Part shown: positions 17,267 to 49,980 of the stretch, in pieces
How positions within the stretch are numbered: position 1 is the stretch's first letter
How the letters are laid out: each line of letters starts with the position of its first letter
NCBI GenBank assembly: GCA_018334995.1
Contig: JAGXKW010000001.1
Coordinates: 13,536 to 77,535 of the forward strand
From: Wenzhouxiangellaceae bacterium
Lineage (GTDB): Bacteria > Pseudomonadota > Gammaproteobacteria > Xanthomonadales > Wenzhouxiangellaceae
Reading direction: 5' to 3'
DNA length: 64,000 bases
The notes under the pieces: model-generated
Told to the model about the DNA's origin: nothing
Databases searched by the model: none
The model's input: the letters and a program-made list of their open reading frames with translations, nothing else
Translations under genes and position numbers: made by a program

Positions 17267-18364
17267 ATGAAACGAAGCGTTCAATTTCTGCTGCAGGCCA
17301 CCGTGCTGGGCCTGGCCATTGCCTTCGTGCTGGTCTGGTTCCGCCCGGGATTCCTGCCGCTGGAAACCGCCGACGGCGGCTTCCAGGCGACCGGATCCTA
17401 TGCCGACGCGGTCAATCGCACCGCGCCATCGGTGGTCAGCATCTATACCCGCACCATGGTCAGCGAGCCCATGATCGGCGAGAGCGCCGATCCGCTGTTC
17501 CAGCGCCTTTACGGCGACCGCAGGGTGCTGCGCCCACGCAGCGGGCTGGGCTCCGGCGTCATCGTCTCCGCCGACGGTCTGATTCTGACGACTGCGCACG
17601 TGATCAACGGAGTGGACAACATCTTCGTCGCGCTGTTCGACGGCAGCGTCGCCGAGGCGCGGGTCATCGGCACCGATCCCGGGACCGATCTGGCCGTGCT
17701 CAAGATCGCGCTGGATGGCTTGCCGGCGGCAAGTTTCAACACCACGACCCGACATCGACCGGGCGACGTGGTGCTGGCCATCGGCAATGCGTTCGGCCTG
17801 AACCACACCGTGACCGCCGGCATCATCAGCGCGACCGGGCGGGGCGACCTGAACCTGGCGACGTTCGAGGACTTCATTCAGACCGACGCGGCGATCAATT
17901 CCGGCAACAGCGGTGGCGCCCTGATCAACGCCCGCGGCGAGGTCATCGGCATCAACTCGGCCTCGCTCAGCCAGGAAACCGGCGCCCAGGGCATCAGCTT
18001 TGCCATTTCCGCCCGGCTCGCAACCGAGGTCATGCGCCAGATCATCGAATTCGGAGACGTGCGGCGGGGCTGGCTGGGGGCGAACGTGACCGACCCGCCG
18101 CTGATGAGCCTGGAAGGCGACGATCAGCCCGGCGGCGTCCAGGTCGCGCAGATTTATCGCGGCGGTCCGGCCTGGCAGGCCGGCCTGCGGCCCGGCGACA
18201 TCCTGCTTTCGGCCGACGGCGAGCCGGTGGGCAGCGCGCGTGAATTCATGCTTACCATGGCCGAAGAAGCGCCTGGGTCCGAAATCGAACTGGTCGCGAT
18301 GCGAAACGGGCAGCGGTTCACCACTTCGGTGACGTTGATCCAGCAGCCGCCTTTGCAGGGCTGA
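17267..18364 (+). CDS. degS: DegS-like periplasmic serine protease (trypsin plus one PDZ)
   Basis: N-terminal TM, TTAHVI, D-x-AVLKI, NSGNSGGALINARGEVIGIN, single PDZ. Confidence 0.88.
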   Translation: MKRSVQFLLQATVLGLAIAFVLVWFRPGFLPLETADGGFQATGSYADAVNRTAPSVVSIYTRTMVSEPMIGESADPLFQRLYGDRRVLRPRSGLGSGVIVSADGLILTTAHVINGVDNIFVALFDGSVAEARVIGTDPGTDLAVLKIALDGLPAASFNTTTRHRPGDVVLAIGNAFGLNHTVTAGIISATGRGDLNLATFEDFIQTDAAINSGNSGGALINARGEVIGINSASLSQETGAQGISFAISARLATEVMRQIIEFGDVRRGWLGANVTDPPLMSLEGDDQPGGVQVAQIYRGGPAWQAGLRPGDILLSADGEPVGSAREFMLTMAEEAPGSEIELVAMRNGQRFTTSVTLIQQPPLQG

Positions 18365-18372
18365 AAGTTACT

Positions 18373-18496
18373 GCAAAACTTCTGCGCGCGCGCCTGGCGG
18401 CGTCCGGTGGTGCTCGTAATCCTGATGTACACAGCACTACACTGCGGTTTCCGCGCTCCGGCGGCCACCGCCGCCCACGCGCTCGCTGCGTTTTCC
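18373..18496. repeat. Intergenic imperfect-palindrome element, copy 1 of core family shared with 39547-39673
   Basis: Core GCGTCCGGTGGTGCTCGTAATCCTGATGTACAC...CACTGCGGTTTCCGCGCTCCGGCGGCCACC matches the reverse complement of 39579-39646 region; partially complementary outer arms. Confidence 0.6.
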
Positions 18497-18572
18497 ACCG
18501 ATTTTCCCAGTAGCGCGGGTCGGGGCGCCGTCCCGACGAATCGATCATCGATGCCCTCGAAGGGGGGTAAAC

Positions 18573-34442: not shown

Positions 34443-34473
34443 GGTTGGGAATAGAAAAAAGACTTTTTATCGG

Positions 34474-34622
34474 AACCGCAAATGGATGCGAATGAACGCA
34501 AATTCTGACGAGTAAGAGAATGCGATCTGATCTGCTCTTTATCTTGGCCTCTTGACTCCAGAAAAATCAGGTTTGATTCGGCATCAGGCATTATTTGCGT
34601 TCATTCGCGTTCATTCGCGGTT
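34474..34622. repeat. Inverted decamer-array element (unit GCGAATGAAC)
   Basis: 30-nt arms 34474-34503 and 34593-34622, 27/30 complementary by eye; each arm is about three 10-nt units. Confidence 0.75.
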
Positions 34623-34673
34623 CAAACGGTTTTTCGAGTCAACCATCTCAATCCAGGAAAATACGACCCCTTC

Positions 34674-37617: not shown

Positions 37618-39504
37618 TCAGATCTCCACTTCGGCCAGGTTGCCCTTGGCTTCCAGCCAGGTCCGACGATCGGAGGCGCGTTTGCGGGCCAGCAGCATGT
37701 CCATCAGTTCATGGGTGGCGGGATCGTCGTCCACGGTCAGCTGCAGAAGCCGGCGCGAGTTCGGGTCGATGGTCGATTCGCGCAGCTGCATCGGATTCAT
37801 TTCGCCCAGGCCCTTGAACCGGGTCTCGGCGATCTTGCCCTTCATGTTCTCGGCCTGGATGCGCGCAAGCAGCCCGGTGCGCTCGTCGCTGTCGAGCGCG
37901 TAGAAGGTTTTCTTGCCGACGTCGATGCGGTACAGCGGCGGCATGGCGATGAAGATGCGCCCGGCGTCGACCAGCGGTCGGAAGTGACGCAGAAACAGCG
38001 CCGAGAGCAGGGTGGCGATATGCAGTCCGTCCGAATCCGCGTCGGCCAGCACGATGACCTTGCCGTATCGGAGTCGGGTCAGGTCGTTCGAGCCCGGATC
38101 GACGCCGATGGCGATGGCCAGGTCGTGAATTTCCTGCGAACCCAGGACCTGGGCCGGGTCGGTCTCCCAGGTATTCAGAATCTTGCCCCGAAGCGGCATG
38201 ATGGCCTGGAATTCTCGGTTCCGAGCCTGCTTGGCGCTGCCGCCGGCCGAATCCCCCTCGACCAGGAACAACTCGGTCTCCTCAAGATCGGTCGACGCGC
38301 AGTCGGCCAGCTTGCCGGGCAGCGCCGGGCCGGAAACGACCTTGCGCCGGGCGACCTGCTTGCGCTGCCTGGAGCGCTTCAGCGCGTTGTCTATGGCCAG
38401 CCGGGCGATCGCCTCGCCGTCGGCGGTGTTCTTGTTCAGCCACAGCGAGAAGGCATCCTTGACCAGTCCGGCGACGAAGCTGGAGGCCTCCCTGGAAGAC
38501 AGCCGCTCCTTGGTCTGGCCCGAGAACTGCGGCTCGCGCAGCTTGACCGAGAGCACGAAGCTCAGACGCTCCCAGGCGTCCTCGGGCGCCAGCCGCACGC
38601 CCCGGGGCAACAGGCTGCGGATCTCGCAGAATTCGCGCAGCGCTTCGATCAGTCCGGTGCGCAAGCCATTGACGTGCGTGCCGCCCAGCGGCGTCGGAAT
38701 CAGATTGACATAGCTTTCCTGGACCAGTTCGCCCTCGGGCACCCAGCACAGCGCCCAGGACGCCTCGGTCTCGTCGCCGCTGAATTCGCCGGTGAATGGT
38801 TCGGCCGGCACGCGCGCCAGGTCCTCGAGCTCGCCGCTCAGGTAGTCGGTCAGTCCCTGCTCGAAGAACCACTCCTCGCGCTCGTCATTCTGTTCGTCGG
38901 TCAACGTGATCGTCAGGCCCGGGCACAGGATCGCCTTGGCCCGCAACAAGTGTTTGAGCCGCAGGCGCGAGATGTTGGCCGAATCGAAATACGCCGGGTC
39001 GGGCCAGAACCGGATCCAGGTGCCGGTGTTGCGCTTGCCGACTTCGGCGACCGGTTCCAGCGGCGCCACCGTGTCGCCGTTCTCGAACGCCATGGCGTAC
39101 TCGGTGCCGCCGCGCTTGATGCGACATTCCAGGCGCTTCGACAGTGCGTTGACCACCGACACGCCGACTCCGTGCAGGCCGCCGGAAAATGTGTAGTTCT
39201 TGCCCGAGAACTTGCCGCCGGCGTGCAGCCGGGTCATGATCAGCTCCACGCCCGGCAACTTGTGCTCCGGGTGCGGATCCACCGGCATCCCGCGCCCGTC
39301 GTCGGTCACCGCCACCGAGCCGTCGGCGTGCAGCACCACGTCGATGCGCCGGGCGTGCCCGGCCAGCGCCTCGTCGACCGAGTTGTCCACCACCTCGGCC
39401 GCCAGGTGGTTCGGCCGGGTGGTGTCGGTGTACATCCCGGGACGGCGGCGCACCGGCTCCAGCCCCTGCAACACCTCGATATCGGCGGCTTCGTATTTAG
39501 ACAT
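37618..39504 (-). CDS. parE: DNA topoisomerase IV subunit B
   Basis: RPGMYTDTTRPNHLAAEVVDNSVDEALAG, TFSGGLHGVGVSVVNALS, EGDSAGGSAKQARNREFQAIMPLRGKILN. Confidence 0.96.
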   Translation of the reverse strand: MSKYEAADIEVLQGLEPVRRRPGMYTDTTRPNHLAAEVVDNSVDEALAGHARRIDVVLHADGSVAVTDDGRGMPVDPHPEHKLPGVELIMTRLHAGGKFSGKNYTFSGGLHGVGVSVVNALSKRLECRIKRGGTEYAMAFENGDTVAPLEPVAEVGKRNTGTWIRFWPDPAYFDSANISRLRLKHLLRAKAILCPGLTITLTDEQNDEREEWFFEQGLTDYLSGELEDLARVPAEPFTGEFSGDETEASWALCWVPEGELVQESYVNLIPTPLGGTHVNGLRTGLIEALREFCEIRSLLPRGVRLAPEDAWERLSFVLSVKLREPQFSGQTKERLSSREASSFVAGLVKDAFSLWLNKNTADGEAIARLAIDNALKRSRQRKQVARRKVVSGPALPGKLADCASTDLEETELFLVEGDSAGGSAKQARNREFQAIMPLRGKILNTWETDPAQVLGSQEIHDLAIAIGVDPGSNDLTRLRYGKVIVLADADSDGLHIATLLSALFLRHFRPLVDAGRIFIAMPPLYRIDVGKKTFYALDSDERTGLLARIQAENMKGKIAETRFKGLGEMNPMQLRESTIDPNSRRLLQLTVDDDPATHELMDMLLARKRASDRRTWLEAKGNLAEVEI

Positions 39505-39546
39505 TCGAATATTTTCCGTTCAGACCTGAAAGTTTGAAAGGATGAG

Positions 39547-39673
39547 TTGAAAGCGTCGTGAGCGGATGCGTGAGGGTGGCCGCCGGCGCGCAGAATCGGC
39601 AGTGCACGTGTCGTGTGCATGAGGATTTCGAGCACCGCCGGACGCCCTCACGCATTCGCGCAGCAGCTTTCAA
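39547..39673. repeat. Intergenic palindromic element, copy 2 of core family shared with 18373-18496 (opposite strand)
   Basis: Arms ttgaaagcgtcgtgagcggatgcgtgagggtgg and cgccctcacgcattcgcgcagcagctttcaa are largely complementary; core matches copy 1. Confidence 0.7.
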
Positions 39674-39954
39674 TCATTCTTGATGATACCGGGGCCTTTC
39701 CCGGCCGTCTTCTCGTAAACCCCCTTGCCGATCTTCTTGTACTGGGTGAACCCGTGTTTTTCGATGCTGGATTCCTTCAGCTGGTGGGCCTTGCCGGAAA
39801 CCACGGTCGGCGGCGAGATCAGGCGCCTGACCGGCGAGCTGCACTCCGGGCAGGTCGCGAGCGGCTCCTCGCCCAGGCGCTGCAGCACGGTGAAGCGGCC
39901 GCGGCAGTGGTCGCAGCCCGGCCCTTCGGCGTGGATGTATTCGTAAAACGGCAT
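39670..39954 (-). CDS. FmdB-like zinc-ribbon protein
   Basis: MPFYEYIHAEGPGCDHCRGRFTVLQRLGEEPLATCPECSSPVRRLIS. Confidence 0.85.
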   Translation of the reverse strand: MPFYEYIHAEGPGCDHCRGRFTVLQRLGEEPLATCPECSSPVRRLISPPTVVSGKAHQLKESSIEKHGFTQYKKIGKGVYEKTAGKGPGIIKND

Positions 39955-40910: not shown

Positions 40911-41255
40911 ATGTCCGAAGACTTGTTTGAAAAGATCATCGACCGGGAAATCCCGGCCGATATCGTGTTCGAAAACGACGAGCTGCTGGCGTTTCGCGAT
41001 ATCAACCCGCAGGCCCCGGTGCACGTCCTGATCATCCCGAAGCGCAAGATCCGCACGCTAAACGATCTCGACGAGGATGATGCCGGGCTGGTCGGGCGCA
41101 TGGTGCTGGCCGCCAAGGAAATCGCCGCCAGCGAGGGCATCGCCGAGGATGGCTACCGGTTGAACTTGAACTGCAACGAGCGCGCGGGGCAATCGGTGTG
41201 GCATATCCACCTGCATTTGCTGGGTGGGCGGAAAATGGACTGGCCCCCAGGCTGA
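40911..41255 (+). CDS. HIT-family (HinT-like) protein
   Basis: FEKIIDREIPADIVFENDELLAFRDINPQAPVHVLIIPK, GQSVWHIHLHLLGGR. Confidence 0.94.
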   Translation: MSEDLFEKIIDREIPADIVFENDELLAFRDINPQAPVHVLIIPKRKIRTLNDLDEDDAGLVGRMVLAAKEIAASEGIAEDGYRLNLNCNERAGQSVWHIHLHLLGGRKMDWPPG

Positions 41256-41362
41256 AAAAACCGCCGGAGCGCTGCTGCGCACCCGCGCGGGCGTTCGCGA
41301 CGCGCTCCGCAATTATCGACTGAATCGACCCATGATGCTCCTGGCCGGCCGCACCCGGCGGA

Positions 41363-47067: not shown

Positions 47068-49980
<2,913 letters not shown>

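Follow-up and report, generated by a model that had tools for sequence, protein, structure and literature searches.

The palindrome between parE and fmdB in the 64,000-nucleotide stretch of Wenzhouxiangellaceae DNA analysed here (the window) belongs to a dispersed family that is probably a non-autonomous, MITE-like mobile hairpin of about 144 bp, located at gene 3′ ends, selected on its single-stranded fold and comprising the Rfam sRNA sX9 as one of its halves. Both arms are part of the moving unit, and the element inserts, or is retained, immediately behind stop codons, always with the same end toward the gene. After insertion the outer stem diverges fast by matched changes, and these obey wobble pairing only on the strand antisense to the abutting gene. 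The selected object would then be the single-stranded fold of that strand, either ssDNA seen by a mobilising enzyme or RNA. A further-reaching version of this proposal is a stop-finding mobile element that accepts any stop codon and is kept as a single-stranded hairpin of one particular strand (ssDNA or RNA), with selection acting on pairing alone, each copy thereby evolving a matched stem of its own, and with sX9 as a fragment of it; we put this version forward tentatively and consider it rather doubtful.

The copy between parE and fmdB (copy 2) is a 144-bp imperfect palindrome at 39537-39681 (model-based bounds, plus strand as in the family model). It is matched by the covariance model R1 with 133 bits (E 2.6e-35), a score on a training member, as R1 was built from copy 2 and 10 other copies of the same genome. 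The locus-specific left outer arm (AAAGGATGAGTTGAAAGC, 39537-39554, plus strand) pairs with the right outer arm (CAGCTTTCAATCATTCTT, 39664-39681, plus strand); these are the segments that enter the outer-arm statistics below. The left half of a variable inner stem (GATGCGTGAGGG, 39565-39576, plus strand) has its partner at 39645-39656, and the alignment of copies defines a conserved asymmetric core (39577-39644, plus strand) that contains the tip of the hairpin together with GCA/GA-type internal loops. The 3′ end of fmdB, which encodes an FmdB-family zinc ribbon protein of 94 aa (39670-39954, minus strand; TIGR02605 above cut-off, PF09723), abuts the element, and its stop codon (39670-39672, minus strand; TCA in the plus-strand reading) is inside the right arm. 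The topoisomerase IV subunit B gene parE (37618-39504, minus strand; TIGR01055, 940 bits) starts to the left, and the plus strand of the element is antisense to both genes. As ssDNA, copy 2 folds with -45 kcal/mol, compared with -28 kcal/mol in shuffles (z = -6.2, 0 of 200 shuffles as good). The palindrome reported at this place by the initial annotation is thus present and folds far beyond shuffles, and the overlap of its right arm with the fmdB stop, also pointed out there, turned out to be a family-wide rule.

A model scan detects three copies in the window: copy 2, copy 1 (18364-18507, minus strand), whose right end immediately follows the stop codon (18362-18364) of a gene for an HtrA/Deg-type protease, and a remnant with its centre deleted (41257-41318, minus strand; model match E 8e-5). 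The remnant directly follows the stop of a HIT-family gene (40911-41255, HIT domain), a site where the sister species SP244 (G002) has a full copy. BLAST recovers about 20 clear copies besides copy 2 in the window's own genome. The covariance model from 11 copies gives 51 matches at E <= 0.1, corresponding to about 35 separate places because the palindrome also matches on the reverse strand, and these include a tandem array on contig C14. Such arrays with regular spacing were seen at C14:37540-38043 (133 bp) in this genome, at C43:31730-32267 in G005 and at C3:975671-976162 in G004. Repeats are also nested in repeats: a different short hairpin (approximately CCTGCCCCGGATC...GATCCGGGG) lies in one arm of three own-genome copies (L006, L014 and L020, at C109:49112, C113:1807 and C88:44219). 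Another repeat type is found in the window at 34473-34623, an inverted repeat (GAACCGCAAATGGATGCGAATGAACGCAAAT) with arms 90% complementary and 89 nt apart.

The initial annotation had noted that copies 1 and 2 share a core, with arms that match only within each copy. In a set of 51 copies from two species (the window's own and SP244), within-copy pairing of the outer arms is 92%, cross-copy pairing 62% and between-copy identity 47%; the corresponding values for the core are 97%, 89% and about 85%. The observation is therefore right and general. The outer arms of different copies are related after all, being diverged versions of a consensus close to GGAAATCGnnnnAAAGC / GCTTTnnnnCGATTTCC. Compensatory double changes that keep the pair occur at 25 of the 52 model pairs, and the observed covariation was reached by 0 of 500 shuffles. 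Copies found only in SP244, which are young, have an outer-arm identity of 61%, older copies shared with another genome 40%, yet both groups pair at 95%. The sequence of the stem appears nearly free in this lineage, with only the pairing and the asymmetric core mattering, and a stem free except for pairing around a constrained core would account for what had been described as locus-specific complementary arms.

Wobble pairs indicate which strand is constrained. The left arm was aligned to the reverse complement of the right arm with a symmetric score ignorant of wobble pairs, and transition mismatches in the outer arms were G.T on the element's plus strand in 77 cases and on its minus strand in 7, that is, 77 G.T versus 7 A.C when read on the strand antisense to the adjoining gene. 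The variable inner stem has 97 plus-strand and 8 minus-strand wobble mismatches. Counted separately, each of the 12 Wenzhouxiangellaceae genomes has more plus-side cases (SP244 25:3, for example, and the window's own genome 10:2); the asymmetry is absent in SZUA-38 (3:4) and slight in other taxa (11:8), so the strand rule may be lineage-specific. A one-strand bias of 77:7 suggests selection on a single-stranded fold of the plus strand, as RNA or as ssDNA. Neither a double-stranded palindrome or cruciform nor arm-to-arm template switching would produce such a bias. Selection on structure, one of the two explanations offered in the initial annotation, is supported by the compensatory pairs, by pairing kept despite age and by the wobble bias in both stem segments.

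A possible, if somewhat improbable, alternative is a functional RNA: the antisense strand would be transcribed into a structured RNA or an antisense 3′-end element, with mobility a mere spreading route. Limitation of G.U-type tolerance to one strand fits an RNA, as do the lower RNA folding energy of the plus strand in 83 of 90 copies and the long retention of orthologous copies with covarying stems across species; some copies are moreover annotated as sRNA via Rfam sX9 (PMC9029176). No conserved promoter was found left of the element, however, which leaves an independent RNA of the selected strand without an obvious source; the left neighbour shows no preference in direction, and sX9 is modelled on the opposite strand. 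Hairpins of the attC and REP types are recognised as ssDNA by the mobilising enzyme.

The sX9 family (RF02228, Xanthomonas sRNA sX9), 76 nt long, aligns over its full length to one half of the element, from the tip to the left end, on the minus strand. Scores are 87-88 bits for two Pseudomonas copies and 46 bits for a family copy in G017, against a gathering threshold of 44; the window copy scores 13 bits, and no own-genome copies were matched at the threshold used. At gathering thresholds Rfam gives nothing in the whole window, and the miRNA matches obtained at loose thresholds were dismissed as hairpin artefacts. The sequence of sX9 is homologous to half of the element. Rfam, however, models sX9 as an independent sRNA on the opposite strand that forms small local hairpins, whereas the element is twice as long, paired end to end, mobile and located at stop codons. 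The Rfam structure shows nothing but local hairpins because the partner half lies beyond the model, and these are probably not the main structure (for example, L161:6939-7014). Among sRNA annotations in bacteria sX9 is one of the 20 most prevalent (PMC9029176), and sX9 copies are reported to be up-regulated by copper in Xanthomonas (PMC10924375). On our reading, this widely annotated yet unexplained sRNA would become half of a mobile palindromic element.

The match between arms could also be mutational, with template switching in the palindrome rewriting one arm to the other in the absence of selection, a process that we think unlikely to explain the family. Both arms of the parE-fmdB orthologs differ by about 11 bp in length in a matched way, and in another ortholog pair blocks of adjacent bases are altered together in both arms, as rewriting would produce. 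It predicts neither the strand bias of the wobble mismatches nor the conservation of the asymmetric core, although template switching may still help to generate the arm changes.

The mobile hairpin that we favour has one end docked at stop codons. With stops called from long open frames that read into the element, standing in for curated genes, 39 of the 51 right ends in the window's genome and SP244 fall within -10 to +20 of a stop, most at -3 or -2; left ends of the same copies give 16 scattered cases near a stop. The flush class (-6 to 0) holds 23 of 42 right ends versus 4 left ends in additional Wenzhouxiangellaceae copies, 10 of 19 versus 2 in other taxa, and 0 of 13 in SZUA-38. Of 68 cases scored, 63 have a right neighbour that points toward the element; the left neighbour is without clear preference. 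All three stop codon types are found at docking sites, and the three copies in the window all lie at a stop (fmdB, with the stop in the arm, the HtrA/Deg-type protease gene and the HIT-family gene). We rejected a CTRR target motif combined with survival as the cause of docking: were CTRR the sole requirement, with equal tolerance at stops and outside genes, such sites predict that about 6% of copies would be flush, whereas in SP244 22 of 36 right ends are (61%; P 2e-18). Should docking be intrinsic to the insertion machinery, it would represent a novel mode of target selection in which the host gene is spared. With copy numbers in the dozens per genome, the family lends itself to tests of both the strand-specific covariation and the exact docking at stops. 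Orthologous copies in five genomes (L121, L204, L214, L220 and L227) lie directly behind an apparent tRNA CCA end, the tRNA being recognised by its 3′ sequence alone.

Fixed orientation directly behind stop codons would also be expected of a gene-sense 3′-UTR hairpin, acting in the mRNA of the upstream gene as a stabiliser, a terminator or a ribosome-stalling REP-like element. In E. coli, REPs that lie no more than 15 nt from a stop codon have been reported to reduce translation (PMC12306157). We nevertheless regard it as improbable, since the wobble bias is on the opposite strand, leaving A.C mismatches on the mRNA strand, and a functional UTR element needs no flushness to within 1-2 nt. An intrinsic terminator would have a U run behind its hairpin, but in the aligned copies neither strand has a run of T after the palindrome.

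Element-free sites bear on the origin of the arms. Gene ends beside SP244 copies were sought in the window's genome, where 10 usable element-free sites were found, and 4 of these were followed in nine more genomes. At these sites the gene ends at the same codon or within 1-2 codons, often with another stop codon; the C-termini are unchanged and the DNA behind the stop carries neither arm. For example, SP244 has GAC TTC TGC TAG and then the element, and other species have GAT TTC TGT TGA or GAT TTT TGC TGA followed by unrelated DNA. In a yidC-mnmE-like gap the element is directly behind the stop, with the remainder of the short gap on its far side. There are exceptions: C129 carries a remnant that has lost the core, and two loci have unrelated short hairpins. 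At the latter (L243 and L244; own genome C105:4020 and C25:4055) a near-perfect hairpin sits just behind the stop in place of the element, perhaps left by loss of the element's centre. Clean empty sites, the likeness of arms among young copies and constant pairing indicate that the arms arrive with the element and then diverge in step.

The other origin proposed in the initial annotation, an insertion process that copies flanking sequence in inverted orientation, was not borne out, and together with insertion of the core into pre-existing hairpins it is very improbable and, at loci with clean gaps, refuted: stop codons inside the arms and the two core-less orthologous sites in G000 with a short hairpin just behind the stop speak for it, but most element-free sites have no hairpin bearing either arm, young copies share arm sequence, and SZUA-38 has fixed inverted repeats with target duplications. 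The absence of both arms from empty sites, which the initial annotation had named as the refuting outcome, was found at loci other than parE-fmdB. In the parE-fmdB comparison itself, the closest element-free gap (G003) has no arm, but it is too diverged to align and hence indecisive at this locus. SP244 keeps an orthologous parE-fmdB copy, both arms of which differ from those in the window. The right half of this SP244 copy is interrupted by a second palindromic element, about 250 bp in size, whose inverted ends are long (CACTCACCCCATCGACGGGCGGACCGC...; contig C52, approximately 47700-48150; L062, L115).

Evidence of mobility comes from SZUA-38, where at least 18 copies share inverted repeats that are nearly identical (GGGAACCTCTAGAAACC). 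Perfect 4-bp duplications flank 4 of 13 distinct clear-ended copies from SZUA-38 and a few other genomes (about 0.2 expected), and all four are in SZUA-38. Fixed inverted repeats with 4-bp duplications are the signature of a DDE-type MITE, and their presence in SZUA-38 suggests that the family is MITE-like; filled and empty sites among relatives are found as well. Target duplications are not visible in the window's own lineage. No match to a Y1/RAYT transposase (PF01797) was detected in the six genomes of the genus (G000-G005), making REP/RAYT mobilisation unlikely there. A search of the SZUA-38 draft genome for an autonomous partner by inverted-repeat pattern returned only short elements or single ends. 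A putative mover IS would have the ends GGGAACCTCT...AGAGGTTCCC and 4-bp duplications. Another MITE with ends GGGAGCCTCTGAACAAG, which resemble those of the element, lies inside or replaces ends of the hairpin element in SZUA-38 (G060; L171, L176, L179-L181, L185, L188 and L192).

Several known systems share features with the element. Like the MITEs ERIC (127 bp), Correia/NEMIS and RUP, it is a short, non-coding, dispersed imperfect palindrome, with inverted repeats and duplications in SZUA-38; compared by features rather than by sequence, it differs from them in its drifting stem with strand-specific covariation and in its docking at stops. With REP/REPIN sequences and their RAYT it shares dispersed palindromes near gene 3′ ends and hairpin bulges, but it is about 144 bp rather than 20-40 bp long, its carriers in the genus have no Y1 transposase, and the REP end tag GTAG is inside the arms and not at the end. 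The integron attC is a hairpin that immediately follows a stop codon and folds on the antisense strand, with a variable stem and conserved bulges. The element is alike in all these respects, but its conservation lies at the tip and not at the base, and it occurs as dispersed single sites with no cassette array. The attC R boxes (RYYYAAC / GTTRRRY) are absent from the ends of the copies, as inspected by eye. A literature search by core sequence returned unrelated primers only, and no description of the full element was found in the literature searched, an absence that is weak evidence.

The same model applied to 61 related genomes gave matches in 23, with 1-47 each (both strands counted), in a sample of one draft genome per species with many MAGs, where copies share ancestry and are thus not independent. 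Among plasmid and phage collections, the only carrier is one Comamonas plasmid, with no phage. The family is patchy within genera and extends to other families of the order, and a core pattern scan of named genomes detects it in Lysobacterales/Wenzhouxiangella, Rudaea, Lysobacter, Pseudomonas, Nevskiales and one Troglogloeales MAG.
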